Shown here one piece after another: positions 315-22,487 of a stretch of DNA of 63,628 bases. Below the pieces are notes generated by a model. That model was not told the DNA's origin. It saw nothing but the letters and a program-made list of their open reading frames with translations, and ran no database searches. Position 1 is the first letter of the stretch. Every line of letters starts with the position of its first letter. The DNA lies in the NCBI GenBank assembly GCA_024698885.1, contig JAILQQ010000130.1, forward strand, positions 1 through 63,628. Direction: 5' to 3'. The translations under genes and the position numbers were made by a program. The stretch comes from Lachnospiraceae bacterium (lineage in GTDB: Bacteria; Bacillota; Clostridia; Lachnospirales; Lachnospiraceae).

Positions 315-887
315 ATGGTAATCAGCCCGATCGTACTGGAAAAGGGCATGTCATCCGACATTTTTTCCGCAAATCTGGAGGATCGGACGATCCACCTGAT
401 CGGACCGATCACGGATGAGATGGCAGCCACCATCGTGGCACAGCTTCTTTACCTGGCTAAAAAAAAACCGAAAGGGGAGGGGAGTGATATCCAGCTGTAT
501 ATCAACAGCCCCGGCGGCAGTGTATCGGCCGGATTTGCGATCTATGACACGATGCGGTTCATCACCCCGGACATCATGACCGTCTGCGTGGGCAGGGCCG
601 CTTCGATGGCGGCAGTTATTCTTTCCGGAGACAAAAAGGGAAAACGCTGTATCCTCCCCCATGCGGAGGTGATGATCCATCAGCCCTCCGGCGGCATGGA
701 AGGACAGTCGGAGGATATGGTGATCGCGGCCGAGCATATCAAAGAGACCAGAAACGTCTTGAACGGTATCCTCGCTGAAAATACGGGAAAGCAGCTTGAG
801 GACATTATAAAGGATACAGATCGCGATCACTGGATGAGAGCGGATGAAGCTGTTTCCTATGGGATCGTGGATCGTGTATTGAGATAG
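315..887 (+). CDS. clpP: ATP-dependent Clp protease proteolytic subunit, ClpP family
   Basis: This is a 190-residue serine peptidase of the ClpP family, which forms a barrel-shaped tetradecamer that degrades proteins fed in by an AAA+ unfoldase. The triad is complete: Ser97 in 'GRAASMAA', His122 in 'MIHQPSGG' and Asp171 in 'TDRDHW', at the classical E. coli-like positions. The substrate-strand motif 'NSPGGSVSAG' is present. Length is typical and there is no obvious long propeptide. The start has a good AAGGAGG site. It sits inside an operon of unknown and AAA+ genes rather than beside tig/clpX/lon, so it is probably a dedicated paralogue and not the housekeeping ClpP; that is inference. The partner ATPase may be the next gene, which starts 12 bases downstream. 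Confidence 0.95.
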   Translation: MVISPIVLEKGMSSDIFSANLEDRTIHLIGPITDEMAATIVAQLLYLAKKKPKGEGSDIQLYINSPGGSVSAGFAIYDTMRFITPDIMTVCVGRAASMAAVILSGDKKGKRCILPHAEVMIHQPSGGMEGQSEDMVIAAEHIKETRNVLNGILAENTGKQLEDIIKDTDRDHWMRADEAVSYGIVDRVLR

Positions 888-899
888 GAGGGGTGAAGC

Positions 900-3841: not shown

Positions 3842-3844
3842 GGT

Positions 3845-5233
3845 ATGGGCAAGATCAGGTTTAAGCCTGTCCTTACGCCGCTTAAGGAGACTAAAAAGCA
3901 GGCGGCTGCAAAGGCCAGGATCGAGGCGGTTTTAAGGAAACTGAAGAGGGAAAACCGCTTTCTGGTCGCCGCGGCGAATTTCCTGACACCGGTCGCGGTG
4001 AAGGAGAATCTGGGGGATCATATCGTCACGGATGGTAAGAATCTTTACTTTTCTCCCGCAGCATTCCTAAAAGATCCTGATGGAGACGATGCATGGATCA
4101 GAAAGCAGCTGCTACATATCATGATGCATGGTTTTCTGGGACATTTTGTGATGAAGGAAAGCTTCGAGCATCGTGGGCTATTCTGGATGGTACTGGATGT
4201 GCAGGTAATGCTGCTGCAGTATCTGATGGAAGGGACCCATTCGGATGTACAGGCAGTATTTGAAGAGATGATCGGCTATGAACTGTATTTTCGGTCGCAG
4301 GAGGACGGAGCCTTGTATGACGCTTTAAAGAGGACCATGAAGTGCCACCGGGCAGAGCTTGATGATCACAGTTTCTGGGCTTTACCGGATCCGCCGGGTT
4401 CTGCCGTAAGCTGTACGGCAGGATCCGCACAAGAATTCTGGGAACAGCAGATACAATTCCTGACAAGCGGAAAGAGTGTTTTCGGCCGCATGGACAAAGC
4501 TACGGCTGCAAAGCTTCTTACCGGGCTTGGGAAGAAGCTCCGGGAGGGAGGAAGGCAATGGGGAACCGGGGCCGGCAACGGAAAGGAGATGATGGAAGCG
4601 GCAGGAGAGGCAAAACTCTTCTACCGCGGAATTCTTCAAAAGCTGTCGGAACATAGGGAATCCGTCAGGGAAGAGGACAATATCGATCCGATCTATTATT
4701 CCTACGGGCTCTCCCTGTATGAGGACGTTCCGATCATTGAACCGTTAGAAGAGACAGAAACCCTGTGCTTGCGCTCAGTCGTGATCGGGATCGATACCAG
4801 CGGCTCCTGCGTTTCGGATCTTCCGCAGTTTCTTTCGGAAACGCAGGAAATATTCGGGGAGATCCTGCGGATCGGACATCTGGAAAAGCTTCATCTGCTG
4901 CAGTGCGATGACGCGATCCAGTCCGAGCAGACCATTGACAGTGCCGAAGAGCTTGCGGGGTACGGGAAAAAAGCGGAAATGCGGGGGTTTGGCGGAACCA
5001 GCTTTGTGCCGGTATTTAACAGGGTGAAGGAATATATAAAAGAAGGAGAGAAGATAGACTGCCTGATCTACCTGTCCGACGGATACGGACAATTTCCGAC
5101 GGAAGTTCCACCCTATCCCGTATATTTCGTGCTGAAGGAGAATTCACAGGGGCCGGGGGGTATCATCCCCCCCTGGGTCAGATGTCTGTATTTAGAACAA
5201 GGCGAAAGGGGGAAGAACCATGAATATGGTTAA
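3845..5233 (+). CDS. DUF2201-like vWA protein (metallopeptidase-like N-domain + vWA-like C-domain)
   Basis: A 462-residue partner of the MoxR ATPase, resembling the predicted metallopeptidase/vWA-like family (DUF2201, COG3864). The N-terminal half has a histidine cluster 'LLHIMMHGFLGH' (His91, His95, His100), similar to the HExxH region but with the catalytic Glu absent, so peptidase activity is doubtful. The C-terminal half has a vWA fold with metal-ion-dependent adhesion residues: Asp317-Thr-Ser-Gly-Ser321, 'GGTSF' (Thr385) and 'YLSDG' (Asp412). vWA domains bind protein partners through a bound cation. The gene is 3 bases after moxR, and its last 14 bases overlap the next gene. Confidence 0.85.
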   Translation: MGKIRFKPVLTPLKETKKQAAAKARIEAVLRKLKRENRFLVAAANFLTPVAVKENLGDHIVTDGKNLYFSPAAFLKDPDGDDAWIRKQLLHIMMHGFLGHFVMKESFEHRGLFWMVLDVQVMLLQYLMEGTHSDVQAVFEEMIGYELYFRSQEDGALYDALKRTMKCHRAELDDHSFWALPDPPGSAVSCTAGSAQEFWEQQIQFLTSGKSVFGRMDKATAAKLLTGLGKKLREGGRQWGTGAGNGKEMMEAAGEAKLFYRGILQKLSEHRESVREEDNIDPIYYSYGLSLYEDVPIIEPLEETETLCLRSVVIGIDTSGSCVSDLPQFLSETQEIFGEILRIGHLEKLHLLQCDDAIQSEQTIDSAEELAGYGKKAEMRGFGGTSFVPVFNRVKEYIKEGEKIDCLIYLSDGYGQFPTEVPPYPVYFVLKENSQGPGGIIPPWVRCLYLEQGERGKNHEYG

Positions 5234-6599
5234 CTATCTGGACTGGTGTAATGATTTCCTCCCGGAGGAGACATGGTACGGTCATCTTCATGCAGGGGAA
5301 TCCCGGGAGGTGCCTGTAAAGAACGGGCCCGGCTGGCTTCCGGACGGGCCGGAACTGGATAAAGACCTTCAGAAAGTGAAGGAGAACGGAGCGGCCTTTC
5401 GTGTGGCGGCACTGCGCTTCCGTAACAAGGAGCTGCAAAACCCGGATGGTCTGATCTGGTATTTCGGAAAGCCGGATCCGTGTGCGGATCGCTATAATCT
5501 GCAGGAAATAGACTGGGACACAGTGTTTGAAAACGAACCGGAGCGCGTGGTGTATCTCTATCGGGTATCGCCACTGATCATGGCCGTTCTGACAAAGGAC
5601 AGGAGAATGGTCTGGAACATGCTGCGTCAGGACAGAAGCCTGTCGATCAGCCGGTACCATTTCTGTTATGACGAGATACACTATAGCGCGAATAGAGATG
5701 ATGTGGTCCAGCCCTATGTATCATTACATGAACAGCTGACGGAGGCATGCGCGTCCTATATCCGGATCTGCAGGGCTCTGCTGACGGGAAATATGACACC
5801 GGATCTGTTTGCGGAACTGCTCTGCAGACTGGAAGAGGGAGCATCCGGTGACGGCCGCTGGTTCTTCTGGCCATTTGCCTATCAGGATGCAGATCCCGAA
5901 ACCTTCCGTAATTCCCTGAACCTGCTGCTTAGCATCAAAGAGCAGTGGCCGCAGATCTTTGGGAAGATTTACAATGAGAAGCTGCATGGCGAGATCCTGT
6001 TCAGCTTCTTCTGGAATTTCTGCCACCCGGAAGCACCGCCTGCGCGTCTCTACGCCTGGTTCATAAAAAAGATGCATGAGCTCTCTACGCAGCGGACAAC
6101 CGGTGATTTCTTTTACAGGCTGGTCGATCAGGCACTTGGCGTTCCTGAGCTGGAGCTTAACCTGCTCGGGGATGGAAGAGTCGAGCAATTTTGGAAAGAT
6201 CTGACAGGAAAAGAACCTGTGCTGGATCTTCGTGACAGAAAAAACGGGGAATGGTTCTATCGCCTTTTTGAGGAATTTGAAGCGAGCAGACCTTTTGAAA
6301 GCGGAAAGATCTCCCGACGATGCGTACAGTATCTCAGATATGTGCTCCGTTCCGTTACGAGAGTCATCCCCTGCGATGAGGATGAGGAAAGACTGGAGAT
6401 CCCGAAGGATCTTCTCCTGTGCAAGGACGCGGAGCTTCTTCTGTTAGCACTGCAAAAGAATCTCCTGTCTGTAAGGCAGGTGGATAACCTGATACGGATC
6501 GCGCGGGAAAACGGACAGACAACGGAGATCCCGTTACTTATCCTGAAAAAGCATGGAGAATGGAAGGAGGGAGAAGTAGTTCATGATCAACAGATATGA
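5220..6599 (+). CDS. Unknown protein of the ClpP/MoxR-vWA operon
   Basis: A 459-residue soluble protein that I do not recognise. There is no signal peptide or membrane segment; it is rich in Trp, Phe and acidic residues. Near the N-terminus it has 'YLDWCNDFLPEETWYGHLHAGESREVP'-type sequence (first ~35 residues). The last ~60 residues form a helical unit ending 'IPLLILKKHGEW', matching the end of the partial gene at the left edge. The start is chosen at the ATG behind AAGGGGGA; it overlaps the vWA gene by 14 bases, and the stop region overlaps the next gene by 17 bases, indicating translational coupling. Its role is unknown; context suggests a substrate-binding or adaptor component. Confidence 0.85.
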   Translation: MNMVNYLDWCNDFLPEETWYGHLHAGESREVPVKNGPGWLPDGPELDKDLQKVKENGAAFRVAALRFRNKELQNPDGLIWYFGKPDPCADRYNLQEIDWDTVFENEPERVVYLYRVSPLIMAVLTKDRRMVWNMLRQDRSLSISRYHFCYDEIHYSANRDDVVQPYVSLHEQLTEACASYIRICRALLTGNMTPDLFAELLCRLEEGASGDGRWFFWPFAYQDADPETFRNSLNLLLSIKEQWPQIFGKIYNEKLHGEILFSFFWNFCHPEAPPARLYAWFIKKMHELSTQRTTGDFFYRLVDQALGVPELELNLLGDGRVEQFWKDLTGKEPVLDLRDRKNGEWFYRLFEEFEASRPFESGKISRRCVQYLRYVLRSVTRVIPCDEDEERLEIPKDLLLCKDAELLLLALQKNLLSVRQVDNLIRIARENGQTTEIPLLILKKHGEWKEGEVVHDQQI

Positions 6600-8034
6600 A
6601 TTGCAATATATCGATCTGATACGATGGGATGATACGTTTTGGGAAGCACCGGTCTATCAGATCGACACGGAGGCGGAATTATTCCCGTATCTGGAGGCCT
6701 CGATCAAGGGGGCAGATACGGAAAAGAAAAATTATCCGGATCTGCTTCCGGGATGCAACAAGGGATTTCGCGTACTGAAAAACGGGTGCCCTTACACCAA
6801 CCAACAGGACGGGAGTATACCGGAGTATTACGGAGATACAAGAAGGGTGATCGCGAGGCTCCTGTCTGACGTAAAGCAGGGAAATTGTCAGATCTTCAGC
6901 CTGACAGTCAATGGAAAAAAGTATACGGATATCCGTAATATCCGGGAGATCACGGTGCCGGGGGCCGGGAACCGCCTGATCTTCAAAGCAGTGTATGAAG
7001 GCAGACAGGTACTGCTCGGCCTGCCGGTTATGCTGGAAGATTCGTATCCGGATATACCCGAAAAAAGGAACTCGGTCATTTCCCTGAGTACGATGGAACT
7101 GTATACTCTCTTGGATCCGGCAAAAGAGCACGCGCTCTCTTTGTTTGGAGCCAAACCCTTAATGTGGTTCAGAGGCAGAAGAGTTGATCTGTTTTATGGT
7201 TCGTTCCGTAACGAAAAAGGGGAAAAGATGAAGGGTATCTTTTACTTTCTGCATAACAGCCTGATCCCGAAATATGCCATAAAAGAAGACCGAAACGGTG
7301 AACTGCATTATCTGTTGTCCGATGTTGAATGGAGTTTCAACCGGAATTATCCCGTATGTATGGAAGTGACGGCAGGAGCACCAAAACCTGTGCTGTACAA
7401 ATATAAATATGTTTTCCTGAATATGGAGTCTTCAGAGGATGATATCTACTGCCCGCCGGAAACATTTGCCAGGGAATGCAAGGCCTTTATGGAAAAGAGC
7501 AGTTTTAGGAGAGGGGGACGGGAAACCTTCATCAGGGAGTTTGAAAAACATGTTCTGCAGGCTATCCGGCTTCCAAAAAGCGGAATGATCATTCGTGATA
7601 AGCAAAAGATCCCGTTTTCCTGTACGGCGGAAGGTGTATTGTCCGCCGAGATCACGTCGGGAGACCGCCGCATTTTACTCAAGCTGATATTAAGAGAGTC
7701 TTTAAGAGAAGATAGGCCGGCAGACTATTTTTTAGAGATCACCTCTCCTATGGTTGAGATCACAGGACGACGAGGTCATCAGATGCTGATTCGGTTTGAC
7801 AGAGCATCCGACAATTGGTCCGTCGAAGATCCTGGCAGCGGACGGAAATACAGTCCGGACGAGCTTTTTGCAAAAGGCATGCATATTCCTTCGGCAAAAA
7901 TGAACAAAGTGTATGTTTTGCAATGGAATGGAACTTTTGATTTTATCAGTGAACATCGGAACGAGGTGATCTGCTGTGCGGATGAGGCGGAACAGATCAT
8001 TTATGGAGAAAGGGAGGGATTTTTATGTCATTGA
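6583..8034 (+). CDS. Unknown protein of the ClpP/MoxR-vWA operon
   Basis: A 483-residue protein without recognisable family. No signal peptide, membrane segment or nucleotide-binding motif is visible. It looks like a mixed alpha/beta protein with many aromatic residues. A Cys pair occurs at 'VICCADEAEQ' near the C-terminus. It starts inside the preceding gene (17-base overlap, with AAGGAGGGAG upstream) and its end overlaps the next gene by 10 bases, so it is an integral operon member. Function cannot be assigned from sequence alone. Confidence 0.82.
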   Translation: MINRYELQYIDLIRWDDTFWEAPVYQIDTEAELFPYLEASIKGADTEKKNYPDLLPGCNKGFRVLKNGCPYTNQQDGSIPEYYGDTRRVIARLLSDVKQGNCQIFSLTVNGKKYTDIRNIREITVPGAGNRLIFKAVYEGRQVLLGLPVMLEDSYPDIPEKRNSVISLSTMELYTLLDPAKEHALSLFGAKPLMWFRGRRVDLFYGSFRNEKGEKMKGIFYFLHNSLIPKYAIKEDRNGELHYLLSDVEWSFNRNYPVCMEVTAGAPKPVLYKYKYVFLNMESSEDDIYCPPETFARECKAFMEKSSFRRGGRETFIREFEKHVLQAIRLPKSGMIIRDKQKIPFSCTAEGVLSAEITSGDRRILLKLILRESLREDRPADYFLEITSPMVEITGRRGHQMLIRFDRASDNWSVEDPGSGRKYSPDELFAKGMHIPSAKMNKVYVLQWNGTFDFISEHRNEVICCADEAEQIIYGEREGFLCH

Positions 8035-9092
8035 TCGTTCTTTTTGACGAAAAAGAGATATATGATCATTTACCGAAGGAAGAATGGTTAAATTTCAGGA
8101 AGTACGTGATGAAGGATGGTCCGGTGGATGATCATATACAGTCGGATTTCTGCGATCTTATAACCTTTGAGCTTCAGGAATTTCTGGAAACGAAGGTCAT
8201 CCGGGACTACTTTACAGAATTTGGACTGGAATATGTTCCGGATTACAAAATGAAAGCAGAAGAATGGGGGCCGTTAAGCTATCAGGGAGATGATCCGCAG
8301 TTTATCATGTTTCTGCATCCACGGCTGCAGTTTGCCCTGACTGCCCTGTATAGGGAACATTTTCATTACCTGATCCATCCTTATCTTCTGGATGCCACAT
8401 ACACGATGCCCCTGCTGAGGGAAAGGAATCTGTACGTTTTGGAGGATCCTGATCATATCACGCTGGACGGCCAACTCTTCAAACTGTTGGAAAACGGTGT
8501 CGACATCGTTGTGGGAGATCTTCATTCCCGGGATTTTTCAGAATCGTATCCGGATGATTTTTTACGGGCATTGTGGAAACTGGAATCAAAATACAGTTAT
8601 ATCTCGAAGGAGATGGATATTCAGTATTTTGGCGAAGAGAAGGCCACGGATATCCAAACGGATCTGTATACCTTATTAAGCGGGTCGGATACAGGTGTTC
8701 AGTATACGGACAATGAAGATATGTACAGATCCGTACGGGTTTCCGTTTCCACGCCGATCTCGTTTAAAGAGGACGATCTCAGAAGACTTCCTTTGTATTA
8801 TCTGGACCAGGTCGGAGATACATGGTTTTTCCGGCTGGGAATGTCCGTAAAATATCCCTCATTTGAGGATCTGATCGGGGAACTTCTGCTGGGAGGAAAT
8901 GCGCCCGCAAAAAGGATCATGCTCGTCCTGAACTGCAATGAGAGATGTGATGTCAGAAAATATCCGGAGTACATCAAATATATCATGGTGTATGACAGCG
9001 CAAAGCATGAGTTGGAAGTGCTGGGAAAAAACGGCCTGCATATCTTCCGGGAGGCGCTGCATCAGTCAGTAGAAGCGGATGAAACGGAATAA
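8025..9092 (+). CDS. Unknown protein of the ClpP/MoxR-vWA operon
   Basis: A 355-residue, acidic, soluble protein that I do not recognise. It begins 'MSLIVLFDEKEIYDHLPKEE' and is rich in Tyr, Asp and His with no nucleotide-binding or membrane signature. It overlaps the preceding gene by 10 bases behind an AGGGAGGG site. The next gene (HSP90-like ATPase) follows after 14 bases with its own AGGAGG. Conserved placement in the operon would be the best lead to its role. Confidence 0.82.
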   Translation: MSLIVLFDEKEIYDHLPKEEWLNFRKYVMKDGPVDDHIQSDFCDLITFELQEFLETKVIRDYFTEFGLEYVPDYKMKAEEWGPLSYQGDDPQFIMFLHPRLQFALTALYREHFHYLIHPYLLDATYTMPLLRERNLYVLEDPDHITLDGQLFKLLENGVDIVVGDLHSRDFSESYPDDFLRALWKLESKYSYISKEMDIQYFGEEKATDIQTDLYTLLSGSDTGVQYTDNEDMYRSVRVSVSTPISFKEDDLRRLPLYYLDQVGDTWFFRLGMSVKYPSFEDLIGELLLGGNAPAKRIMLVLNCNERCDVRKYPEYIKYIMVYDSAKHELEVLGKNGLHIFREALHQSVEADETE

Positions 9093-9106: not shown

Positions 9107-12100
9107 ATGGAATACAGATCATATGGTGAGATCATCGGTTCGATCATCGGAGGAGTATACCAGGACGGCATCGCCACCAAGATACTCCAGCACATGGACA
9201 GGATCAGGAATATGAGCGACGTTTCCCAGGCCAGGAGATGGGTGATGGAGCTTTTGCAGAATGCCAGGGACTGTTCCTATAAGGACACGGGAGTAAAGGT
9301 CAGGATCGAGCTTAAGGACAATGAACTTGTCTTCAGCCATAGCGGAAAACCCTTCCGCATTAAGGATGTGCTTTCCGTAATTAACCAGGTTACTTCCAAG
9401 GCCTCATCGGAGGAGACCATAGGACAGTTTGGAACGGGCTTTATGACCACGTTCCTTTTAAGCGACAGTGTGACGATACATTCCGTACTTAAGGAAGAAG
9501 GGCTTCCCTATAAGCCTTTCACCATAAGAATGGACCGCAGCAGTAATGAAAAAGACGGGATACTTGCGGGCATTGAGAAGACCATGCGTGAGCTTGACCA
9601 GGTTGACGTTTCTCCGGAGATCACTGATTTCAACAAGGAAGGCTATAATACGGTATTCAGCTATCCCCTTAAAGACCGCTACCATTATAATATCGCAAAA
9701 ACAGGCTTTGAGGACTTAAAAGAAACCATTCTCTACGTGATGCTTTTTTCAACACCTCTTAAGGAGATCGAGCTTGTAAGTCATGAAGGCGGTGAGAGGC
9801 AGGTCCGCTATACCCGTGGTGAGGATATTGCTATGGGTCCTGCCCTGCGGATCCTGACTATTAATAATGAGGGTACCTTAAATGGGGTAAAGCTGAATTC
9901 GGAGGACAATCATATCCTGTATTATACGGATAATGACCTGACTCTTGCCGCGGCTTATGACAGTGAAAAGCGTTTTAAGGTCTTTTCCGATAAGCTTCCC
10001 AGGATTTTTGCGGATTTTCCCCCTTATCGGGGCAGAAGGATTCCCCTTCCCTGTCATATTGAATAACAGGAACTTCAAGGTAAATGAGCCCCGGAGCGGT
10101 ATTACCCTTGTGGATAATGAAACTTCACAGGACGCAAAGGCCAACAAGGATATTATGCGGAAAGCTGTTGCCATGTATGAAAGGTTTCTGAAGGATGCGC
10201 TGGCATCAGGCTATGGAGACCTTGAAAACATTGTGGAGATCCCGGATTGGCGGGAAAGCAAGGAAATGTCCACAGCATGGGTAAAGGCTAACATTTATGA
10301 CGCCATTTATAGGATCGTTTCCGTTGTTCCCATGATAAAAACGGATAGGGGGGAGATGGCACTTGCTGACATAAATGTTGTTCTTCCGACACCCGTTGAA
10401 TATCCTGCGGATAATATGGAAAGCGTGATACGGATCGACCCATGGGACGGACAGGGTGAAAAGAAAGCCGTATTATCTGAATTACTCTCGGTGGGGCAGT
10501 CTTATACCGTACCGGCCGGAGATGAGCACTGGCTCAAGGCGTTTTCGGGATATGAGCAGCACAGGCAAAAAAGGATGACGCTTAAAGAAGTAGTGGAAAA
10601 AGCGGCGGAATTCCTTGCTAAGCTTGATGAGGGTAAAATGAGCCCGTTTATGTGGCTGCAGAAGCTTTATGATGCCTGTCTTGAGGAGAAATCCCTGAAG
10701 ACAGACATCGCGGCAGGCCAGATCGCCATATTCCCCAGCCAGGATGAGGATGACTGGAAGAAAAAGAAGCTTTATACAAACGCGGAAATATACCTTGATA
10801 ATGATATACCGGAGATCCTGAAGGATGTGACAGAAGAGCTGGACAGACTGTCTTCGTCGGATGGGATCGTCCTGCGAAAGAGCCTTCTCCATAAGGATTT
10901 TAAGATCGGACAGAAGGAGATGAAGCCCTATCCTGCTGAGAGGATAAGTGAGTATATATCGCTTCGTGCTGCGCGATCGTATAAGGTTCAGAATTATAAT
11001 TTATATTCATACGCTTATTTGAACGCATGGCATAACGCCTGGAACATGCTGGTGGCCTGCGGACCGGATGAAGATTTTTACAGAATGGCAGCCCGGGTAA
11101 GGGATGGACTGGAAGCATATGAACCCATTGGGACGAATACCTTTGGGAAATCGATGTGGAAAAGTACATATTGCTCCCTGTTAGAGGAGATCGCATCTGA
11201 GGTGGAAGCGGCTTCATCGCTGGATGGACTGACTCAAAAGTATTCTGCCCTTCAGGACACGGATGAAGTCTGTCAATGGATCAACGATTATGTAAATTGC
11301 GGGAAGAATTACCTAAGCGCCATGTCCGGGAATATTTATCCGGATCAGAAGGGCTGGCTCCGGAACCTCTTTGCTCTTTACAAAGACACCATGAAATATG
11401 AAGAACTCAAGGATATCATGGAGGTATTCAGTGATCAGGACAATGAATATGCTGTCCGGGAGAAGCTCTTAGATAAGAGGATAGTCAACACTCTCCAGCA
11501 TATTCAGAACTATAGTGACGGGGATGCGGCGTCAAAGATCGGTATAAGGGTCGATACCCTTCTGGCAACCGGAAGTCTTTCGCAGGCTTCAGATCATTAT
11601 CAGGAGGCCTGCGGGAAACTCCTTTCCTGGATCCGGACTCATATGGAGGAGGCGAGGACATACTTTCCTTCCTATTACAGCGAGGAGAACCAGATGAAGC
11701 TTTTGACGCCCCATGCAGCGGTGCTTCTTCAGAGGAAGGCCGATGATATGGAAGACATCATGAAGGAATTTGGCGTGTCCACCGCGGAAGATCTGAAGAA
11801 AAAGATAAAGAAGCTCCGTGACCAATATGGTTACCTGGATGGTGAAGAAAACGAAGAGGGATCTGACGCTGCCACAGGGGGATTCTGTCCGGAGTATGAT
11901 GTCTTTTATGGGTCGGATCTTGCAGGAGCAAGCGAAGATGTTCTCCGGGAAATAGGCATCGGGGGAGAAAGGTATGCACTGAAGAAAGTCGTGGAATATA
12001 TGAAAGAACAGGGATACGGCCTGATAAGTGAAGAGCCCGGAAGACGCTATATGCTGTCCGGAACCTCTGATGGATCAGGAAAACGCGAGCAAATAGAAGT

Positions 12101-12449
12101 CTTTTACGCGGATAATGAGAATTATCATCAGGCGGGATATGATATCAAGGTAACAGTATCGGTTTACGGAGATGACGGGGCTTTAGAAGAAACAAAGGTT
12201 TACTACCTTGAAGTCAAAACCCATACCCCGACCAGTGAGGTCAGGAACAGGATCGTCCTTTCAGATGAACAGATGATACTTGCGGCGTCAGAGGGAGAGC
12301 GTTATTCGATCCTCAATGTGGGATATGACCGCCTGATAAAGAACGGCACAGATATCACTGAACTGAAGGATCCGGTATCCCTTATCGGAAAGAGGAGGCT
12401 TGTCAACCTTCGTAAGGGGTACTTCTTCCACGTCAATCGGGTTGCGTGA
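9107..12449 (+). pseudogene. HSP90/sacsin-type ATPase with C-terminal DUF3883-like domain, frameshifted
   Basis: Two overlapping frames (9107 to 10066, and ~10020 to 12449) join into one ~1113-residue protein if one base of the CCCCC run at 10019-10023 is skipped. The N-terminal part is a GHKL ATPase of the HSP90/sacsin type: N-box 'ELLQNARD' (Asn52), 'HSGKPF', and G-box 'GQFGTGFM' (106-113). After the joint the family-like 'FPLIGAEGFPFPVI' segment reads through in the second frame. The C-terminus (~residues 950-1080) has 'GGERYALKKVVEYM', 'AGYDIKV' and 'YYLEVKT', the layout of a DUF3883/Mrr-like nuclease-type fold (D...ExK). It is the last gene of the operon. Whether it is dead, programmed to shift or misread is open. 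Confidence 0.82.
10019..10023 (+). other. CCCCC frameshift site
   Basis: The run of five C follows a TTT codon. In the first frame it reads TTT-CCC-CCT and then runs to a stop ~45 bases later. Skipping one base gives TTT-CCC-CTT-ATC and restores a conserved-looking protein. A P-site tRNA-Pro on CCC could re-pair at +1 on the overlapping CCC, so programmed shifting is mechanically possible; a point deletion/insertion or a read error is simpler. Confidence 0.75.
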
Positions 12450-13223: not shown

Positions 13224-13814
13224 ATGCTCGAGGTTAGCCTTGACCGCTTTCGCTATAACGTAAATCCACAGCTGATCGAAATGAAGAAGGATGCGCTTTC
13301 CCATAAACCTGCTGGTCTACGTGTGGTTGATATATTAAAGCTTATTCTGATCCTGAGCCGTGTAGTCCAAAAAGAAGGCCTGCTCAGTATGGAAGATATG
13401 GTCGGGGATTTTGAGGATATTCCTGAGTATCTCCGCGAGTTTGTCCTTCTTATCGTAGATGGGGCTGACCCTGATTACATCGTAGAGTATGGGAGTATCC
13501 ATTATTACATGAGCAGCGACCGCGGAGAGCGCTTCAAGATTTTTTTCTCGCTGTATCTGATACTGCTCCTGCAGCTGGGGGGCAGGGATTGTATGATATG
13601 GTATATAGCAAAACACATGCTCAACGATGATGAAAGGCAGGAAATGTCAGAGCTTGACGCCAAAAGAAATGAGAAGTTAGGACCCGGGAAGCCGAGAAGT
13701 ATCCACGATATAGATCGTTTGTATCTTTCGCAGGACGATATAAATACGCTGCTTAATGGGTTTATGCCTGATGAAGTAAAGGAAAAAGATAAGCAAGATG
13801 AAAATGTTTCATGA
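13224..13814 (+). CDS. Unknown 196-residue protein
   Basis: A soluble protein I do not recognise, starting behind a perfect AAAGGAGG. It has mixed helical segments; the stretch 'FFSLYLILLLQLGGRDCMIWYIAKHML' in the middle is hydrophobic and may be a buried helix or a single membrane-associated helix. The C-terminus is strongly charged (KEKDKQDE). Its stop overlaps an ATG in the next frame (13811), so it is coupled with the following coiled-coil gene. Both lie divergent from the XRE regulator and may be a regulated pair. Confidence 0.75.
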   Translation: MLEVSLDRFRYNVNPQLIEMKKDALSHKPAGLRVVDILKLILILSRVVQKEGLLSMEDMVGDFEDIPEYLREFVLLIVDGADPDYIVEYGSIHYYMSSDRGERFKIFFSLYLILLLQLGGRDCMIWYIAKHMLNDDERQEMSELDAKRNEKLGPGKPRSIHDIDRLYLSQDDINTLLNGFMPDEVKEKDKQDENVS

Positions 13815-13852
13815 AGGAATTTGATAAATCTATAAAAAGGGAGGGAATGAAA

Positions 13853-14512
13853 ATGTCGGAAAAAATGTTAGTAACACAGGCGCTTGATGAGAGGGATCTT
13901 CTGGTAAAGAAGATCCGGGATAAGATCGAGAAGGCTAACTTTGCGGATACTGTCAAACATAATGAGGAAAAAGTGATCACGGCAAGAGTTTCAAGAGAGG
14001 AATTCAGTAAGGATGCAGAGAGCGCGTTCCAGCAGATCCAGGATCTGATCAGCCGTTTCCAGAAAATTGATGCTGCGATCGTGGCCTCCAACGCAAAAAC
14101 CATGATCAAAACATCACTTGGTGACTATACGGTTGCAGGAGCAATTTCGCTCAGAAGCAGACTTCGGAACAAAGGATCCTATAACGGAGAATCTGATTTT
14201 GAGTCAGCCCTTAAGAAGAAGCTGGAACATGATCTTGAACAAAATGTGCTGTTCGCAAACGTCAAAAATCAGGATCTTCAAAAGGCTGCCGAGGGTATGA
14301 GGCTTTCTATACTTGGTAAAGATGCCAAGGTGAAAGATGATAAGCCCCTTGAGGTCGTGGATGCTTATATCAGTGAGAATACGACTGAAGTTGTGGATCC
14401 TTTGGATATCCGGAAAAAAGTGGAGATGCTGAGGGAGAGACGGGATACGCTGCTGACGGAACTTGATACCCAGATCAAGGTATCCAACGCTACAACGTTT
14501 ATAGAAATCTGA
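13853..14512 (+). CDS. Unknown coiled-coil protein
   Basis: A 219-residue helical protein starting at the ATG eight bases after GGGAGG (an upstream ATG at 13811 is less well placed). Two charged helical stretches flank a central region: residues ~1-75 ('ERDLLVKKIRDKIEKANF', 'FQQIQDLISRFQKIDAAI') and the C-terminus ('IRKKVEMLRERRDTLLTELDTQIKVSNATTFIEI'). The pattern is weakly reminiscent of the small helical DIP1984-type family, but I would not assign it. The non-coding region with the tRNA-like structure begins immediately after the stop. Confidence 0.78.
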   Translation: MSEKMLVTQALDERDLLVKKIRDKIEKANFADTVKHNEEKVITARVSREEFSKDAESAFQQIQDLISRFQKIDAAIVASNAKTMIKTSLGDYTVAGAISLRSRLRNKGSYNGESDFESALKKKLEHDLEQNVLFANVKNQDLQKAAEGMRLSILGKDAKVKDDKPLEVVDAYISENTTEVVDPLDIRKKVEMLRERRDTLLTELDTQIKVSNATTFIEI

Positions 14513-14513
14513 T

Positions 14514-14710
14514 ATCGAAAGGCAATGCCTGCAACACGAAAACTTCAAACCCGGTTCCCCGGTAACAGGGTTACGTTACTTTTCAATATAGCGTAGCTGG
14601 TAACGCAGGACCAACGGTCCAAACTCGGGTTCGATCCCCGATATTGAGGCCCAGAAGGGGAAAGCAGTCAGCCGTACTGCTACTATAAAAACGGTTGCCA
14701 TTTTACCGAT
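14514..14710 (+). ncRNA. Candidate structured RNA enclosing a tRNA-like module (Y-RNA-like)
   Basis: Starting just after the upstream stop, the ends can pair: ATCG (14514-14517) with CGAT (14707-14710), AAA with TTT, and GGCAAT (14521-14526) with GTTGCC (14694-14699, one G-T wobble), interrupted by small bulges. Inside lie a hairpin GTAAC/GTTAC (14562-14574), the tRNA-like module (14582-14648), and a perfect 6-bp hairpin AGCAGT/ACTGCT with a 7-base loop (14663-14681). A closing stem plus a tRNA-mimic domain is the layout known for bacterial YrlA-type Y RNAs, which bind Ro60 proteins. No Ro60/TROVE protein is inside the window. No promoter is obvious, so the RNA may be processed from the upstream transcript. 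The ends are approximate. Confidence 0.55.
14582..14648 (+). other. tRNA-like fold with a 3-base 'anticodon' loop
   Basis: The 67 bases fold as a cloverleaf: 7-bp acceptor (TTCAATA with TATTGAG, one T-G pair), D arm GCG/CGC with loop TAGCTGGTAA (14591-14606), a third arm GGACC-AAC-GGTCC (14608-14620), a 4-base variable region, and a perfect T arm TCGGG/CCCGA with loop TTCGATC (14625-14641). All hallmarks of tRNA are present except an anticodon: the third arm's loop is 3 rather than 7 bases. No CCA follows. It therefore cannot decode; it looks like a tRNA mimic. Confidence 0.75.
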
Positions 14711-14941
14711 TTATGTTTTAAATGAACCATGAACCGTGAATGTTCAACCATTATGTTTATGAAACTTAAACCATGAACTGAGAACGTTCTTCAGACATAG
14801 AAATATGTTGAAATCCATGGAAAAGGTTAGGACGCTGAACCGGTTGGCCTGAAGTTATCCTCATGGCTGTGTTGCAGGCATTTTTCTGCCTGAAAATGTG
14901 CCGGAGTAAATCCCCGGGAATGACAGGAGGAAGCACGCTGC
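14711..14941 (+). other. Non-coding stretch with two small hairpins
   Basis: No reading frame is credible here. Visible structures are ACATA-GAAA-TATGT (14795-14808, GNRA tetraloop) and CAGGCA/TGCCTG (14875-14892), the latter not followed by a T run. The nonamer ACCATGAAC occurs twice in the first 70 bases. An AGGAGG near the end serves the next gene. Confidence 0.4.
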
Positions 14942-15901
14942 ATGGCAAAATCTGAAATGAAGAAAAAGAGGCGTATCAAACAAGGGGAAATTGACCGGGA
15001 TCTGACGGGGGAAATAAAACCGGAACCGTTATGGGATCATCTGACCCGTATCATTCCCCCGGAGATCATTCTGTATGACAGAAAAGGCGAATATCCCTAT
15101 ATAAATGTATCGGAACTGATGGCTTATTCCGAAGAGCAAAATAAGATCCCAAAAGTGATCATGGAATCCGTACTGGGAGAATTCTGCTATTATACATCTA
15201 CTGACTGCAGGTATCTCGATCAACTGGAATCAGAGCAGTTCAAGAAGCTGTATATAGCTCTGGATCCTGAAACAGAAGACTATAAATCCTTCGCAAGAAG
15301 ACCATATTATCAGATGAGGGGGAAGAGGATCAGTGAAGAGCAGGCAATTGAAATAATTGCCAGAACAGATAATTATTTCAGATTTCATTATGACAGGGAA
15401 CTGCTGGAAGCCGCCAATTATGTGGGGTGTATGAATTTTGACCAGTGGTGGATCGGTAAATATCATATTCCTGCGCACTACGGATGGTGCCATCCAAGTG
15501 GTATCATAGGCGGGAATGCGATGACCCAAAAATATCCGAACATACTGGAATTCATCGAGGAGGCTATCAGGTGGGCTATAAACTTTCCGGCTCTCGACAT
15601 CATGATCGGGGTGACCGAATGGGATGAGAAACCATATGACCCGGATGACTATAGTGGGTCGGATCCGTATGAGGAATATGAGAATTTTCCTGACAATATC
15701 GCGATCGGGATCAATGTTCATGAGAATACGGTGGAGATATTAAACGGTAAAAATGCAAGAGAACGCTATCTGATCTATGATAAAATGTATGGAGAAGAGG
15801 ATCGCAGAGTTTATATTCCCGAATACTATGAGGATAGGGGTCTTTTCATCTGTGATGAGCAATACCTGAAAAGATGTGAGGAGATACTGGGGATCAGATA
15901 G
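14942..15901 (+). CDS. Unknown 319-residue protein
   Basis: A soluble, acidic, aromatic-rich protein I do not recognise. It starts with a basic segment (KSEMKKKRRIKQGEIDRD) that could contact nucleic acid. The central part has 'NFDQWWIGKYHIPAHYGWCHPSGIIGG' and a very acidic 'DPDDYSGSDPYEEYENFPD' segment. An AGGAGG lies 12 bases before the start. It lies between the structured RNA and a PPP-type phosphatase, and the same style of composition (rich in Trp, Tyr, Asp) is seen in the unknown proteins of the upstream operon. Confidence 0.78.
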   Translation: MAKSEMKKKRRIKQGEIDRDLTGEIKPEPLWDHLTRIIPPEIILYDRKGEYPYINVSELMAYSEEQNKIPKVIMESVLGEFCYYTSTDCRYLDQLESEQFKKLYIALDPETEDYKSFARRPYYQMRGKRISEEQAIEIIARTDNYFRFHYDRELLEAANYVGCMNFDQWWIGKYHIPAHYGWCHPSGIIGGNAMTQKYPNILEFIEEAIRWAINFPALDIMIGVTEWDEKPYDPDDYSGSDPYEEYENFPDNIAIGINVHENTVEILNGKNARERYLIYDKMYGEEDRRVYIPEYYEDRGLFICDEQYLKRCEEILGIR

Positions 15902-15966: not shown

Positions 15967-16686
15967 ATGGCGACATATGTAATATCTGATATTCATGGTG
16001 AATATGATCTGTTTATGGAACTGCTTGAAAAGATTAACCTCCGGGATGAAGATAACCTGTATATTCTGGGGGACGTCCTCGACCGGGGGCCGCATCCCAT
16101 TAAGACCATTCAAAAGCTTATGGAAATGCCGAATGCATTTTGTGTGGCGGGAAACCACGAGCAGATGGCTCTTGAATGCCTTGGTTTTCTGATGCAGGAG
16201 ATCACAGAAGAATCCATTACAGGCCTGGATGAAAAAGTGCTTCTCAATTTTTCGAGCTGGCAGGAGAATGGCGGGGACACCACCATTAAAGAATTCCGTC
16301 AGCTCGACATGGAAGAAAAACAGGATGTTATAGACTTTATTAGGGATTTCGAATTGTACGAGAAACTGTCAGTGAATGGCCATGAGTATCTTCTTGTCCA
16401 CTCCGGTCTCGGAAATTTTCGACCGGATAAGGATATTGAAGAGTATTCATTATTGGAGATCACCTGGGAGAGGGCAGATTATGATATTCAGTATTTCCCG
16501 GATAAATATGTGGTGACCGGCCACACGCCGACGCAGGAAATAACCGGGAATCCCAGGCCCGGATATATCTACAGGCATAATAATCATATCGCGATAGACT
16601 GCGGGGCGTTTATCCCCGGCGGGAGACTGGCGGCGATCTGCTTGGATACCGGGGAGGAATTCTATTCGTCAGATACTAAGGGCTGA
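15967..16686 (+). CDS. Metallophosphoesterase, PPP-type Ser/Thr phosphatase fold
   Basis: A 239-residue calcineurin-like phosphoesterase. All metal ligands are visible: 'DIHG' (Asp8, His10), 'GDVLDRG' (35-41), 'GNHE' (62-65), 'LVHSG' and 'GHTPT'. This motif set matches bacterial PPP phosphatases of the PrpA/lambda phosphatase or ApaH type, which hydrolyse phosphoproteins or dinucleoside polyphosphates; the substrate cannot be told from motifs. Start is 6 bases after AAAGGAGG. It follows the unknown gene by 65 bases. Confidence 0.9.
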   Translation: MATYVISDIHGEYDLFMELLEKINLRDEDNLYILGDVLDRGPHPIKTIQKLMEMPNAFCVAGNHEQMALECLGFLMQEITEESITGLDEKVLLNFSSWQENGGDTTIKEFRQLDMEEKQDVIDFIRDFELYEKLSVNGHEYLLVHSGLGNFRPDKDIEEYSLLEITWERADYDIQYFPDKYVVTGHTPTQEITGNPRPGYIYRHNNHIAIDCGAFIPGGRLAAICLDTGEEFYSSDTKG

Positions 16687-18277: not shown

Positions 18278-18301
18278 AACCCCTCCTAAAGGAGGGGTTT
18301 T
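18278..18301. terminator. Hairpin terminator between convergent genes
   Basis: AACCCCTCC-TAAA-GGAGGGGTT is a perfect 9-bp stem with a 4-base loop followed by TT on the plus strand. The stop codon of the minus-strand calpain-domain gene lies inside the stem, so the element may serve both directions. Confidence 0.8.
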
Positions 18302-21300
18302 AAAAGCTTTCCTTTATTATCATCCCTCTCGATCTTAGGTGCGTTTCCGTACGACACCAATTGGGCAAATACATCCTTTAACTCCCACCAGGAGGCGCCA
18401 AGCACGCCTGAGGTAAGGCTTCCGTTAAGCTTTCTTATTTCTTTTTTCGCGCCAAAGCCGGTCTTTCCGTTAATGGCTTCATCAACCGTTGCTTTCAGGT
18501 TCCCTTCCTCATCCTTTTCATAGACACGATTATGGAGATTAAGCGGATCCCTTACCAGGATATACCAACGGTTATTTTTAAGCTGAACATCCAGCATGCT
18601 CATTTCATGCATGGAAACGGCAAAAGTCATCCCCTCCTTTTTTCTTTTTGCGGTTTTTACATCATGGAGGAAGATCATCTCCTCCCTGGAATAATATCCG
18701 CCGGGATTCATTTCCATCATTGCTTTATTGCGGTCTCTCGCATAGATGTCCGTTATTTTACACCTGGCGTCGTAGTTTTCATTCGTTTCGTTAAAACCAC
18801 GCTTCAGCGGTTCATAATAAGTATCTTTTTCTCCAACGCTTGCAAGCATGGTTTCTAAAGACTGGCCGGCCATAAACCGTTCAAACAGTCGTGAAATAAC
18901 CGTAGAAGGTTCTAACAGGTCCGTCCCGTCATCCGGCTCCGGGCTCTCTGTCAGGATATTTTTCATAACCTGCGCGGCTATCGCTTCGGGATCCCGTGTA
19001 TATACCTCCTCTATCCGTTTTTGGATGGCATTCAGATCCTCCTCCTTCGCCCCTGGTATTTCTCTGAGGATATCCTCTTTTATAGAGGAGAACTGGACCT
19101 TTCTTAGATCATTGGCGGCCTGCACCTTGGCCTTGACTGTTTCAATGGTGGAATTGATCCACTCCTCCTCGTTCTGAAGGTCTGCGGAATTATTTTTTTC
19201 GATCGCCTCCCAGATATCAAAATGCAGCCAAAGGGGAACGCCGCTTAAAAGCATTCTCATTCTTCTGTTGTCGATATCTGCTTCAGTGAGATGATCGATT
19301 TCCGGCTCGGGCTTGTTATGCTCCCAGCAGTCCTTCCTGCCGGTAAGATGCATCAGTACCTTATCAGCAGATCCTGCCGCGATCTCGGTGGCCAGATCCG
19401 CAATCTCTCCCGTTTTCCTGTCCACTGTGGAAACCCTGTGCTGGGTCCCGGTAGAAGCATATGCCTTTTCCAAAAGCTGGACCCACATGCAGTCCTGGGC
19501 TGTGGCACTGATATCGTAATCCTTTCTCACCCTGATATAGACAGGACGCATCGTGACCTCCGGGCGTACCATATCATTCTCCGAGTCTACCCTGCGGTTA
19601 TTTTCGTCAAAGGCCATATAAAGCCTTACTAAGACTGTGCCGTCCCCTACATCATGAAACATATTCAGGATACCCTCAGGATTGGAACGCATATACGCGG
19701 TAATGGCGCCCAGAAAATAGCAGTCTCCGATATATCCCTGCTTAATATCATTGATATGGGGCTTGTGCAGAAAGAGCGGCAGATCCTTTACATTGCTTTC
19801 ATTAACATCATCACCGCTGTACATCGTATATACCGCAGTCTGGTCTTTTGCCGCCGCGTATTCCGCGTCCGTCATTCTTTCGGGGTTATTAACATCCCTG
19901 AGCTTTCCACGGCCCACGTCCCTGATCTCCGTCATTATATCGAGCAGGCCCTTTATCACATTATCCTCAAAGCTTATATTCCTAAGCTTTACAAAGGATC
20001 TCTGCAGATCCTTCTGGAACTTGTCAAGGAAAGCCATTTCCATTTCCGTCGTATCTGTCGTCACGATATACTTGATCTTGACATAATGCTCCATGGCTTC
20101 GACGGCCGTTTGGATCTCAGGGGGATATTCCTGTTCCCGTCCGTTAAGAAGAAGCCTGATCCCCGCAATACGTTCTTTAAGGTCATCCTTCATCCGGTCT
20201 CCAAACAGATCCGAGATATCCACGGGAGGCACTGACGCATCCCCGCGCTGCAGCTTGAGATCATCCCCTGCCTGATGATCCATTATTTCCTGAGGCATCC
20301 TTTCAAGTCTTTCCACGGATTCGGCATACTTTTCCTCCCCATGCACTTTATTACGGTCTGCGCTGTAAGCCCAGTGAAAGCCATGGAGAAGGGGGGCGAT
20401 CAGCCACTGCGTAAATGTCCTGCCTTCATTTCTTGCATTAAGGGCCCATTCGTACTGTTCCGTATAATGCGTGGTATGGGCCTTAATGTCGTTGAAATCG
20501 AAAAGCCGCTGCTCCGCCTCTGCCCGAAGCTTAAGGAGTCCGTCCAGAGAATCGTCTTTTCCCTCTACGGTATTTCCGTTCTCGTCTTTGTGCCTTCCCC
20601 TCAGCTTTTCTTTGTCGGAAAGCCTTTTTTCTTCATCCTTCAGAGCCTGGTTATCCTTATCCATATTAAGGGCAGCCTGCACGTTCAGAAGGCGCTTCCG
20701 TTCCCATACAACAACAGCTCTTTTGGCAAGGATGTCAAGCACTTCGGAAGCCTCCGTATCCTTGCACTTTTTGGCAAGGGCACAGATCGTCTCCCTATTT
20801 TTATATATTTCAAAATCAGAAAACTTCTCGAAGGTGAGCGTTGCGATAAGCTCCTTTGCCTCCTCAAGGAAATTTCCTTCCCTGTTTTCAGGGCCTATAT
20901 ATTCGGCACGATCAGGGGAATCCTCTTCTTCAAGTTTATAGTCTGCCTGTCTGGCAGCCTTTAACGCATTCATTTTCTCCCGGTATTCCGTAAAATCCCG
21001 CTCGTATCTCTCCTGGCAGAGCCTTATCTTTTCCTGCGTGACAGTGGTATCGATCCCGCCTGCGCTCGTGAGCCGTCCCATGGTAAGAAGATCCTCTTCC
21101 AGTCTTTTCACGGTATCAAGCATATTGATCGCTGCATCAGCCATGCCGATCTGTATATCAGATTGCTCCAGGTAGTATGAACTTCTGCTGTCTTTTCTCA
21201 TGTCCTGTGCGCGCTCGATGATCTCCCGCTGGTCTATCAGATATGGCAGCAGATCAAGGTCCTTTTTCGGATTTCCGGTAAGGGTCAGAGCCCTCAGGTT

Positions 21301-22398
21301 TCTGGCATGGCCAAGGATCCCGAGTTTTCCCTTCGTATCCAAGATCCTTTCCCGGATCAGGAAATCATCCATCCGGTCGGCAAGACCTTTCTTTTCAAGC
21401 TCCTCTCCGCGTTTTCTGAGCTTTTCCTGAAGCGCGAGCCTGCTCTTGCCCGTCCCCGTCTGTCTCAGTGATTCCTTCAGATTCTTAAGCGTGCCGTTAA
21501 GGATAAAGTCATTTGATCTGTTCAGGAAAATGGCAAGGCCGCCCTGGGACTGCCATATCATCTCGGTAAGGTTCTGCTGCTCCGCAGTCATCTTTTCGCT
21601 TTTTTCCATACTGATCTCCCTGTTTTCATGGGTACGGAAATAGCTGTCAAGCATTACCTGTTTTTTCAGCCGGTAATAGCTTACGATGGTGCTTGCCTTC
21701 CCATAATAGCTTTCAAAGGAGAGTCGTATTCTCTCGGGAAGGCCTGCATAAACCTCCGGGTTTTTCGTGATCAGATACTGCATGCTGCTGAACTGCTCAC
21801 TGAATCTTTCAAGGATCGCGGCGTTTTCTGCGACCTTATTATTTGATCTGATATCCAGGTTCTCGAGCTTAAGCTTCATGAACTGTTTCATGCAGGAAAC
21901 GATGGCCTGGCCTTTATCAGCCCCGTGATAAAGCTTTATCAGATCTGCATTGGCTTTTGTACTGGTTCCCATGAAGGAGGAAAGAACCTTAACGCTCAGC
22001 GGCATCCCATTCCCGATGATCCCGGATTTTTTGGCCGCCTGGAGAGCGCGTTCACGCATTTTTTTCTGGCGGTCTATTTCCTGCTCTTCGATAAACTCGG
22101 CGTTCACCTTCTTATGCCAGAGTTCCGTTCCCTTCTTCGAAGCCTGTTCTTTCCTCTGCTTTTCTGTATATACATCCTTGTAGGCTTTCCCGTAAGAGCT
22201 GAAGGTCTCTTTCTCCTGTTTTTTCGAATGGACCTCGCTCCTTATTCCCTGAAGGAAATCGCCCATCGCCCTCTGCTTCTCTGCTTTGTTTTCCGCGGAA
22301 TTAAGAACCTCTGTCACGTTTTCCCAGGCTTTTTTATGATCCACTAATTGCTGTGAACCGTCCTGCTTATTCGTTGTTGTATATAAATCATTTGGCAT
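18286..22398 (-). CDS. Giant protein with C-terminal calpain-like (C2) cysteine protease domain
   Basis: About 1370 residues. The first ~870 are charged, helical and largely coiled-coil-like, with no signal peptide. The C-terminal third has a calpain-type core: 'IKQGYIGDCYFLGA' (Cys893), then 'WVQLLEKAYAST', then 'AVSMHEMS' (His1264), 'ILVRDPLNLHNR' and 'ASWWELKDVF'. In place of the usual Asn of the triad ('NPW') there is Asp ('RDP'). Calpains are intracellular, usually regulatory proteases. The start is the ATG eight bases after AAGGA; a TTG nine codons upstream has no site. A sirtuin gene lies upstream on the same strand. Substrate and trigger are unknown. Confidence 0.8.
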   Translation of the reverse strand: MPNDLYTTTNKQDGSQQLVDHKKAWENVTEVLNSAENKAEKQRAMGDFLQGIRSEVHSKKQEKETFSSYGKAYKDVYTEKQRKEQASKKGTELWHKKVNAEFIEEQEIDRQKKMRERALQAAKKSGIIGNGMPLSVKVLSSFMGTSTKANADLIKLYHGADKGQAIVSCMKQFMKLKLENLDIRSNNKVAENAAILERFSEQFSSMQYLITKNPEVYAGLPERIRLSFESYYGKASTIVSYYRLKKQVMLDSYFRTHENREISMEKSEKMTAEQQNLTEMIWQSQGGLAIFLNRSNDFILNGTLKNLKESLRQTGTGKSRLALQEKLRKRGEELEKKGLADRMDDFLIRERILDTKGKLGILGHARNLRALTLTGNPKKDLDLLPYLIDQREIIERAQDMRKDSRSSYYLEQSDIQIGMADAAINMLDTVKRLEEDLLTMGRLTSAGGIDTTVTQEKIRLCQERYERDFTEYREKMNALKAARQADYKLEEEDSPDRAEYIGPENREGNFLEEAKELIATLTFEKFSDFEIYKNRETICALAKKCKDTEASEVLDILAKRAVVVWERKRLLNVQAALNMDKDNQALKDEEKRLSDKEKLRGRHKDENGNTVEGKDDSLDGLLKLRAEAEQRLFDFNDIKAHTTHYTEQYEWALNARNEGRTFTQWLIAPLLHGFHWAYSADRNKVHGEEKYAESVERLERMPQEIMDHQAGDDLKLQRGDASVPPVDISDLFGDRMKDDLKERIAGIRLLLNGREQEYPPEIQTAVEAMEHYVKIKYIVTTDTTEMEMAFLDKFQKDLQRSFVKLRNISFEDNVIKGLLDIMTEIRDVGRGKLRDVNNPERMTDAEYAAAKDQTAVYTMYSGDDVNESNVKDLPLFLHKPHINDIKQGYIGDCYFLGAITAYMRSNPEGILNMFHDVGDGTVLVRLYMAFDENNRRVDSENDMVRPEVTMRPVYIRVRKDYDISATAQDCMWVQLLEKAYASTGTQHRVSTVDRKTGEIADLATEIAAGSADKVLMHLTGRKDCWEHNKPEPEIDHLTEADIDNRRMRMLLSGVPLWLHFDIWEAIEKNNSADLQNEEEWINSTIETVKAKVQAANDLRKVQFSSIKEDILREIPGAKEEDLNAIQKRIEEVYTRDPEAIAAQVMKNILTESPEPDDGTDLLEPSTVISRLFERFMAGQSLETMLASVGEKDTYYEPLKRGFNETNENYDARCKITDIYARDRNKAMMEMNPGGYYSREEMIFLHDVKTAKRKKEGMTFAVSMHEMSMLDVQLKNNRWYILVRDPLNLHNRVYEKDEEGNLKATVDEAINGKTGFGAKKEIRKLNGSLTSGVLGASWWELKDVFAQLVSYGNAPKIERDDNKGKLLKPLL

Positions 22399-22487
22399 AA
22401 CAATAGTCCTTTCTTGTAAAAACACTTCTGATGCCGGAGGTTTCCTCCTTCTGCCATGATATCATATTTAGGCCTGCCTGCATATGG

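Follow-up and report, generated by a model that had tools for sequence, protein, structure and literature searches.

The tRNA look-alike located behind a phage-type gene in a 63,628-nucleotide stretch of a Lachnospiraceae genome (hereafter the window) is one exchangeable part of a structured RNA of about 350 bases (14527-14880), which contains several pseudoknots and accompanies a single protein family, both in Lachnospiraceae and across diverse phages. This RNA comprises a 12-bp pairing of its ends, an H-type pseudoknot on the 5' side, long-range helices that cross, a region with 7-nt periodicity and a conserved 3' domain (Table 1). The tRNA-like fold itself (14582-14648) is real and part of the covarying RNA, not a chance sequence, and the window harbors a copy that has lost its anticodon loop.

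Table 1. Features of the RNA and of the adjacent genes in the window
Feature	Position	Strand	Basis
Upstream gene overlapping the start of the partner gene at 13811, 196 aa; not the conserved partner	13224-13814	+	
Partner protein gene, 233 aa, PHROG 1491 family, homologue of coliphage T5.085	13811-14512	+	Profile match
P1, 5' strand GCCTGCAACACG; the RNA core starts here	14527-14538	+	Covariation, 71 rows
5' strands of the long-range helices P2 (CTTC) and P3 (CCCGGTT)	14543-14556	+	Covariation
5' H-type pseudoknot: CCC/GGG hairpin, loop GTAAC (14562-14566) pairing with GTTAC (14575-14579)	14557-14579	+	
Nested tRNA-like domain whose anticodon loop is replaced by three bases (AAC)	14582-14648	+	Rfam tRNA model, R2, comparison of loci
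Variable linker with small hairpins	14649-14722	+	Locus comparison, single-sequence fold
Heptad region, AA with 7-base period (TGAACCA TGAACCG TGAATGT TCAACCA ...)	14723-14789	+	Limits by eye
Conserved 3' domain: P5 hairpin (about 14793-14809), P6, P7, 3' strands of P2 and P3	14786-14880	+	R1 and covariation
P1, 3' strand TGTGTTGCAGGC (14868-14879), then ATTTTT as possible 3' end	14868-14885	+	

The domain starts with an acceptor strand TTCAATA, followed by TA and a D arm (GCG...CGC); its third arm is a 5-bp stem closed by three bases (GGACC-AAC-GGTCC), and its 3' part consists of a T arm (TCGGG-TTCGATC-CCCGA) and the second acceptor strand TATTGAG, with U-G as the outermost acceptor pair. The Rfam tRNA model, searched with lax filters over 14400-14950, scores it at 43.3 bits (14582-14649, cut-off 29), and R2, a model built from 22 nested domains that do not include the window's, gives 51.9 bits (14580-14651), which bears out the cloverleaf arms with a 3-base third loop described by the first-pass annotation. 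The domain was missed by ARAGORN and by a fast-filter Rfam scan of the whole window, in which no Rfam family was at its cut-off; ARAGORN at relaxed thresholds had lower sensitivity and was dropped. Sub-threshold Rfam matches near 14549-14928 (CRISPR-DR3, microRNAs, LcrF thermometer) were regarded as chance. Since the folding energy of the window RNA is unconvincing on its own (z about -1.2, not significant), thermodynamic folding was set aside as proof and the reality of the RNA rests on the comparison across loci.

The partner gene is followed by a conserved 5' block and, in most loci about 300 nt further on, by a conserved 3' block. R1, a model of the 3' domain made from 39 sequences that were then searched again with it, matches 81 of 83 sources with E below 1e-16 and scores the window, one of the 39, at 104.9 bits; in the two R1-negative sources (L054 and L092) the stored sequence stops 280 and 244 nt past the gene. 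The core alignment holds 71 distinct rows, after removal of L054, L067, L071, L079 and L092, which meet a contig end, lie in an odd place or have an unmatched box, and then of duplicates and of L069 with its long insertion. In this alignment P1 is paired in 99.2% of 852 cells with 93 double-changed cells, P2 in 96.8% with 74, P3 in 99.4% with 86, and the loop helix of the pseudoknot in 98.9% with both-side changes at all five pairs; in each case none of 500 shuffles did as well, and slid partners scored lower throughout. The hairpin stem beneath the pseudoknot covaries at one of four pairs and is weakly informative. The 3' domain is paired in 97.7% of 1314 cells, with both-side changes at 14 of 17 pairs and 0/500 shuffles, in an alignment that was fitted to the structure and includes two weak extra R1 matches (L036 142-215 and L027 8191-8315). 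Covarying pairs among orthologous loci, on which the first-pass annotation had proposed to judge the RNA, are therefore found in P1, P2, P3, the pseudoknot loop helix and the 3' domain. P7, formed in the window by CCATG (14815-14819) and CATGG (14862-14866) together with AGG and CCT, crosses P2 and P3, so that the core is multiply knotted.

These helices also redraw the limits of the RNA. It had been described as a tRNA mimic spanning 14514-14710 and closed by a longer stem; the mimic does lie within a real RNA, but the covarying closing stem is P1, whose 3' strand extends the RNA about 170 bases beyond 14710. Transcription may terminate at the ATTTTT that follows P1 (to 14885); a pattern scan of the window gave no terminator on the + strand.

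Between the linker and the 3' domain, the dinucleotide AA recurs every seven bases. In 76 bacterial loci, near-identical ones included, the AA autocorrelation at lag 7 is 3.7 times the expectation (z 32, 40 dinucleotide shuffles), with z 24 at lag 14 and z 19 at lag 21, and in 13 phage and plasmid loci the z values at the same lags are 12, 9 and 7 (100 shuffles). Such a regular array may be bound by a protein at one heptad per subunit.

The conserved partner of the RNA is the gene at 13811-14512, the other neighbours being variable, and the window carries both this gene of the PHROG 1491 family and the RNA module with P1, pseudoknot, heptads and 3' domain. Its product matches phrog_1491 with E 4.8e-36, a family labelled 'tail fiber protein', and NCBIfam DIP1984 weakly (E 0.049, far under its cut-off); no Pfam match was found at E 0.01 and no PDB sequence match at E 1. 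The conserved start is probably the ATG at 13853. Homologues 60-76% identical are present in 80 loci, which were obtained by scanning the named genomes of 128 relatives, most of them titled Lachnospiraceae or its genera. None of the genes at the other 80 loci is related to the overlapping upstream gene, whose product shows a weak MotA-like match (E 1e-6) far under the cut-off.

A protein search of 250 family genomes gave a match in 11, two being fragments of about 33 residues without any R1 match in their genomes, while all nine with the full or nearly full protein carry the RNA too. R1 is positive in 11 genomes of the same set, these nine and two more: G135 keeps the 3' domain, preceded by a partner gene reduced to a 13-residue end match (E 0.007), and the other has the heptads and the 3' part only, after another reading frame. 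The 5' box lies within about 100 nt of the partner stop codon in 79 of 80 loci (regular expression allowing 3 edits), as would be expected if the RNA acted in cis as a 3' untranslated element to control or stabilise the partner mRNA. We consider this improbable, since the RNA precedes the matched gene in L071 (8857-10657, none seen downstream), the 3' domain persists in G135 beside that short remnant, and in phage locus L099 the sole R1 match lies about 1.6 kb downstream, after other genes. Moreover, typical 3' UTR elements are simpler than this RNA.

The genes around the bacterial module differ from locus to locus. Among neighbour clusters of 81 loci, each named from one representative, a small HTH protein (weak HTH_3 match) occurs near the module in 43, an RNA ligase of family PF09414 in 17, a T4-Rnl1-type ligase in six, Thg1 in seven, metallophosphatases in ten (with a second cluster of nine named from sequence only), PARG in ten and PIN7 in eight. 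As a rough background, of 250 family genomes five contain Thg1 above cut-off at any position and 30 contain PF09414, some of the latter matches resembling ordinary DNA ligases; both Thg1 and a PF09414 ligase are absent from the window's own genome. Nine loci (L013 at 3237-6443, L019 at 6106-7997, L020-L022, L024, L025, L067 and L077) have large tRNA gene arrays close to the module, and Rfam finds tRNA genes in 12 of the 14 phage or plasmid stretches of 5-9 kb, one more having an RNA ligase. No nuclease gene is consistently linked to the module.

In the window, the RNA is followed by an ApaH/PrpE-like metallophosphatase (15967-16686), whose product also matches a phage RNA ligase family and, below cut-off, bacterial Pnkp. 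Further downstream, on the - strand, a 1379-aa protein (18286-22425) has a calpain-type (C2) peptidase match just below the Pfam cut-off. On the upstream side, a Sacsin-type ATPase and a NOV_C protein (9107-12449) both match PADLOC TmtA PDLC03967 (E 1.5e-66 and 3.1e-30), which looks like a single long protein split between two genes, and an operon at 315-9092 codes for ClpP, a SpoVK-like AAA protein, a MoxR-like AAA protein, a DUF2201 vWA protein and three proteins without Pfam match.

The first-pass annotation had inferred a Y-RNA-like RNA linked to this vWA/AAA+ operon, on the model of bacterial Y RNAs, which bind the vWA ring protein Ro60. YrlA-type Y RNAs also have a tRNA-like module with an altered anticodon arm, and the shortened arm of the window copy resembles them in this respect. 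Nevertheless, an identification as a Y RNA acting with a Ro60/vWA protein is almost surely wrong: no Y RNA model reaches its cut-off in the window, none is among the six Rfam matches at E up to 10 in 14400-14950, the TROVE domain of Ro60 (PF05731) has no match in the window's own genome (G000, a draft 97.7% complete), the partner belongs to PHROG 1491 and the overall architecture is different. The operon likewise found no support as the partner. The DUF2201 vWA gene, 8.6-10 kb upstream of the partner gene, has no cluster member at any of the other 80 loci, many of which have shorter flanks, and ClpP, AAA and MoxR recur in 3, 4 and 2 of them.

The partner protein also occurs in many phages: 173 phage records match it in tblastn, 89 of them with a query coverage of 80% or more, and so do 8 plasmid records. 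Thirteen phage loci and one plasmid locus (L095-L108) were examined. P7 is present downstream of the gene with five of five pairs in all 13 tested loci (all but L099) as seven different sequence pairs, the partner strand being picked, with some choice, as the best one beside CTG or CAG. P1 pairs best with its own rather than a swapped partner strand in 12 of 14 loci (L110 included, L099 excluded), its own strand ranking second in the other two, L100 and L103. The best P1 duplex of L095 and that of L107 contain large internal loops. R1 matches seven of the nine loci L095-L103 (L095-L101) at E 0.1 or better, five below 0.01, with no match in L102 and L103, whereas L104-L108 give two weak matches (E 0.11), of which that in L108 (4312-4361) misses the RNA seen by eye. 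P7 in the phage and plasmid loci rests on direct pairing. The window RNA used as a DNA query has no match in phages or plasmids, and 44 stretches of viral contigs retrieved by a motif scan for the 3' domain were discarded as chance, R1 confirming none at E 0.01.

In the T5-like phage DT57C, the homologue of the partner is named T5.085, and 445 phage records match the RNA stretch of this phage, 433 of them along 80% of its length or more. About 1.9 kb from this gene, DT57C also has an annotated 'RNAX, stable RNA with unknown functions' (L104 5952-6587), inside which Rfam detects a tRNA stretch at 39 bits. The T5-type RNA stretch is interrupted by an insert of about 540 bases in MT074459 and PP810246 (H88 and H95), and a homing endonuclease is annotated in the insert that splits it in Salmonella phage bastian. 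Outside Lachnospiraceae, L110 belongs to a different family in the same bacterial class and harbors the gene, the RNA features and a nested tRNA (by eye and Rfam tRNA model).

Among the 14 phage and plasmid loci, a nested tRNA is present only in L101 (Rfam), and the T5-like DT57C and My1 have none; two IMG/VR contigs found via the bacterial protein (L093 and L094) do contain nested tRNAs. In four loci, those of Av-05, Dulem virus 39, FENT2 and PVP-SE1 (L096, L100, L103 and L107), a tRNA starts directly behind the 3' end of the RNA.

RAGATH-27 (RF03100) exceeds its cut-off in only one of the 14 loci, that of Dulem virus 39 (L100), where it recognizes the beginning of the RNA (77.2 bits versus 76.1); L101 scores 30.8 bits, under the cut-off, and the model has no match in the window, L110, L093 or L104-L108. 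RAGATH-27 as known thus appears to be a fragment of the RNA of one phage clade. When L100 is compared by eye with the Lachnospiraceae consensus, the CGAAAACUU(Y)AAAC box and the pseudoknot layout seem to be shared, but the 86-nt model covers the 5' part only, without 3' domain, heptads, nested tRNA or protein partner. The same stretch of Dulem virus 39 also holds a type II hammerhead ribozyme (L100 516-580). No open-licence PMC paper naming T5.085, T5p083, RAGATH-27 or PHROG 1491 was found, the excerpts of PMC11507696 and PMC8191799 do not mention RAGATH-27, and searches for tRNA-like or heptad RNAs among such papers gave no account of this RNA. RAGATH-18 is the reRNA of IS607 TnpB, and the remaining 33 RAGATH families are said to have unknown functions in the excerpt of PMC11061315. 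The arrangement is comparable in that RAGATH-18 is a scaffold RNA of a protein encoded just upstream; here, however, the protein is unrelated and none of our Rfam scans gave a RAGATH-18 match.

The phage setting also recalls GOLLD and ROOL, large structured RNAs of phages and prophages often close to tRNA islands, with tRNAs at times in the GOLLD linkers (PMC12286853, excerpt). By analogy, the core could multimerise into a scaffold or cage on which the linker tRNA is cargo or decoration. This is unlikely: the RNA is half the size of GOLLD or less, has no Rfam match to either family, possesses a dedicated protein partner and a hypervariable anticodon, and its heptad region suggests a protein coat.

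In the bacterial loci, R2 detects a tRNA-like domain between the 5' and 3' blocks in 71 of 81 R1-positive loci, the other ten copies lacking it, and L055 (10764-10915) has two such domains in tandem within one RNA. This conserved location, at orthologous positions within a conserved RNA, makes it very improbable that the window element is a decayed ordinary tRNA gene, even though its anticodon loop is gone and some nested copies are odd or missing. The best 150 of 213 tRNA-model matches were aligned. Among 63 distinct nested domains, 54 have a loop of seven bases and nine are odd, the window domain being the only one with three bases. The 54 seven-base loops, to which the anticodon counts were restricted, display 23 different anticodons, with Thr (NGT) in 24, Ile (GAT, AAT or TAT) in seven, and Leu, Arg, His, Lys, Ser and others represented as well. 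The entropy is 1.86 bits at position 34, matched only by the pre-acceptor base and the discriminator, and 1.71 bits at position 35. Moreover, among 19 pairs with a body identity of 90% or more, 11 differ in anticodon although their stems are nearly the same. The nested anticodon is therefore hypervariable and readily exchanged between near-identical copies, while U33 is kept in 47 of the 54 loops and a purine at position 37 in 51.

These domains are likely poor translators. Position 34 is A in 12 of 54 loops, although bacteria use A34 almost only in tRNA-Arg; the acceptor begins with U1-A72 in 45 of 71 domains instead of the G1-C72 type of decoding tRNAs, and NCCA follows the acceptor in 14 of 65. 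The window copy, with its 3-base loop and no CCA, departs further from a functional decoding tRNA.

One explanation makes the anticodon irrelevant, and hence variable: the nested or following tRNA would be a handle that recruits RNase P and RNase Z to trim or split the RNA, the halves staying joined via P1-P3. The residues of the D- and T-arm elbow are among the invariant positions of the nested domains, and the tRNA immediately after the RNA in the four phage and plasmid loci agrees with processing. On the other hand, U33, the purine at 37 and the seven-base loop should then drift, which they mostly do not; the acceptor ends fail to align to the model in several copies (L036, L042, L045, L060, L061 and L073), and neither DT57C nor My1 has a nested or directly following tRNA. 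We regard this explanation as doubtful.

The reading that we tentatively favour, possible but far from assured, is a ribonucleoprotein of phage origin whose bacterial form presents the exchangeable anticodon arm to anticodon nucleases. The partner protein would multimerise along the heptads and form the particle together with the P1-P7 core; in bacteria this may display the tRNA-like arm as an expendable bait, acting as a sponge or as a tripwire-like sensor, for anticodon nucleases or other tRNA-cutting toxins. The anticodon would shift to track the current nuclease, the RNA ligases, phosphatases and Thg1-type polymerases encoded nearby, where present, would repair cut tRNAs, and copies without the anticodon loop, as in the window, or without the whole arm could be insensitive or rewired variants. 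The strongest arguments for such a bait are that the anticodon changes while U33, the purine at 37 and the loop size mostly stay, and the RNA-repair and tRNA genes that lie around the module in some loci. In phages, tRNA arrays together with RNA ligase and Pnkp repair counter the anticodon nucleases PrrC, RloC and PARIS; the genomic setting is the same here and the opponents presumably so, but the tRNA is embedded within a larger RNA instead of being free.

The main argument against a bait is that the nested tRNA is missing in most phage forms, so that the core must have a duty of its own; ten bacterial-type copies lack the domain as well. In addition, the variety of anticodons could arise by repeated capture of different tRNAs, the enrichment of neighbours was set against rough controls and includes no consistently linked nuclease gene, the window's genome lacks the two repair enzymes named above, and the tRNA right behind the RNA in four loci favours processing. 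A wider version of the bait is rather doubtful: it would define a new class of ribonucleoproteins born in T5-like and many other phages and acquired by gut Lachnospiraceae, with a protein filament or ring on heptad RNA, a core of several pseudoknots and, in the bacterial form, a swappable arm whose anticodon changes to intercept or sense the tRNA-cutting weapons of phage-host conflict.

A mostly unannotated RNA thus seems to adjoin a gene doubtfully called 'tail fiber protein', even in the T5 group. If the ribonucleoprotein reading is true, RAGATH-27 would gain a full architecture and a protein partner, a reason would be suggested for the presence of the PHROG 1491 gene in phage tRNA islands, and the expendable tRNA bait would become a directly testable idea.
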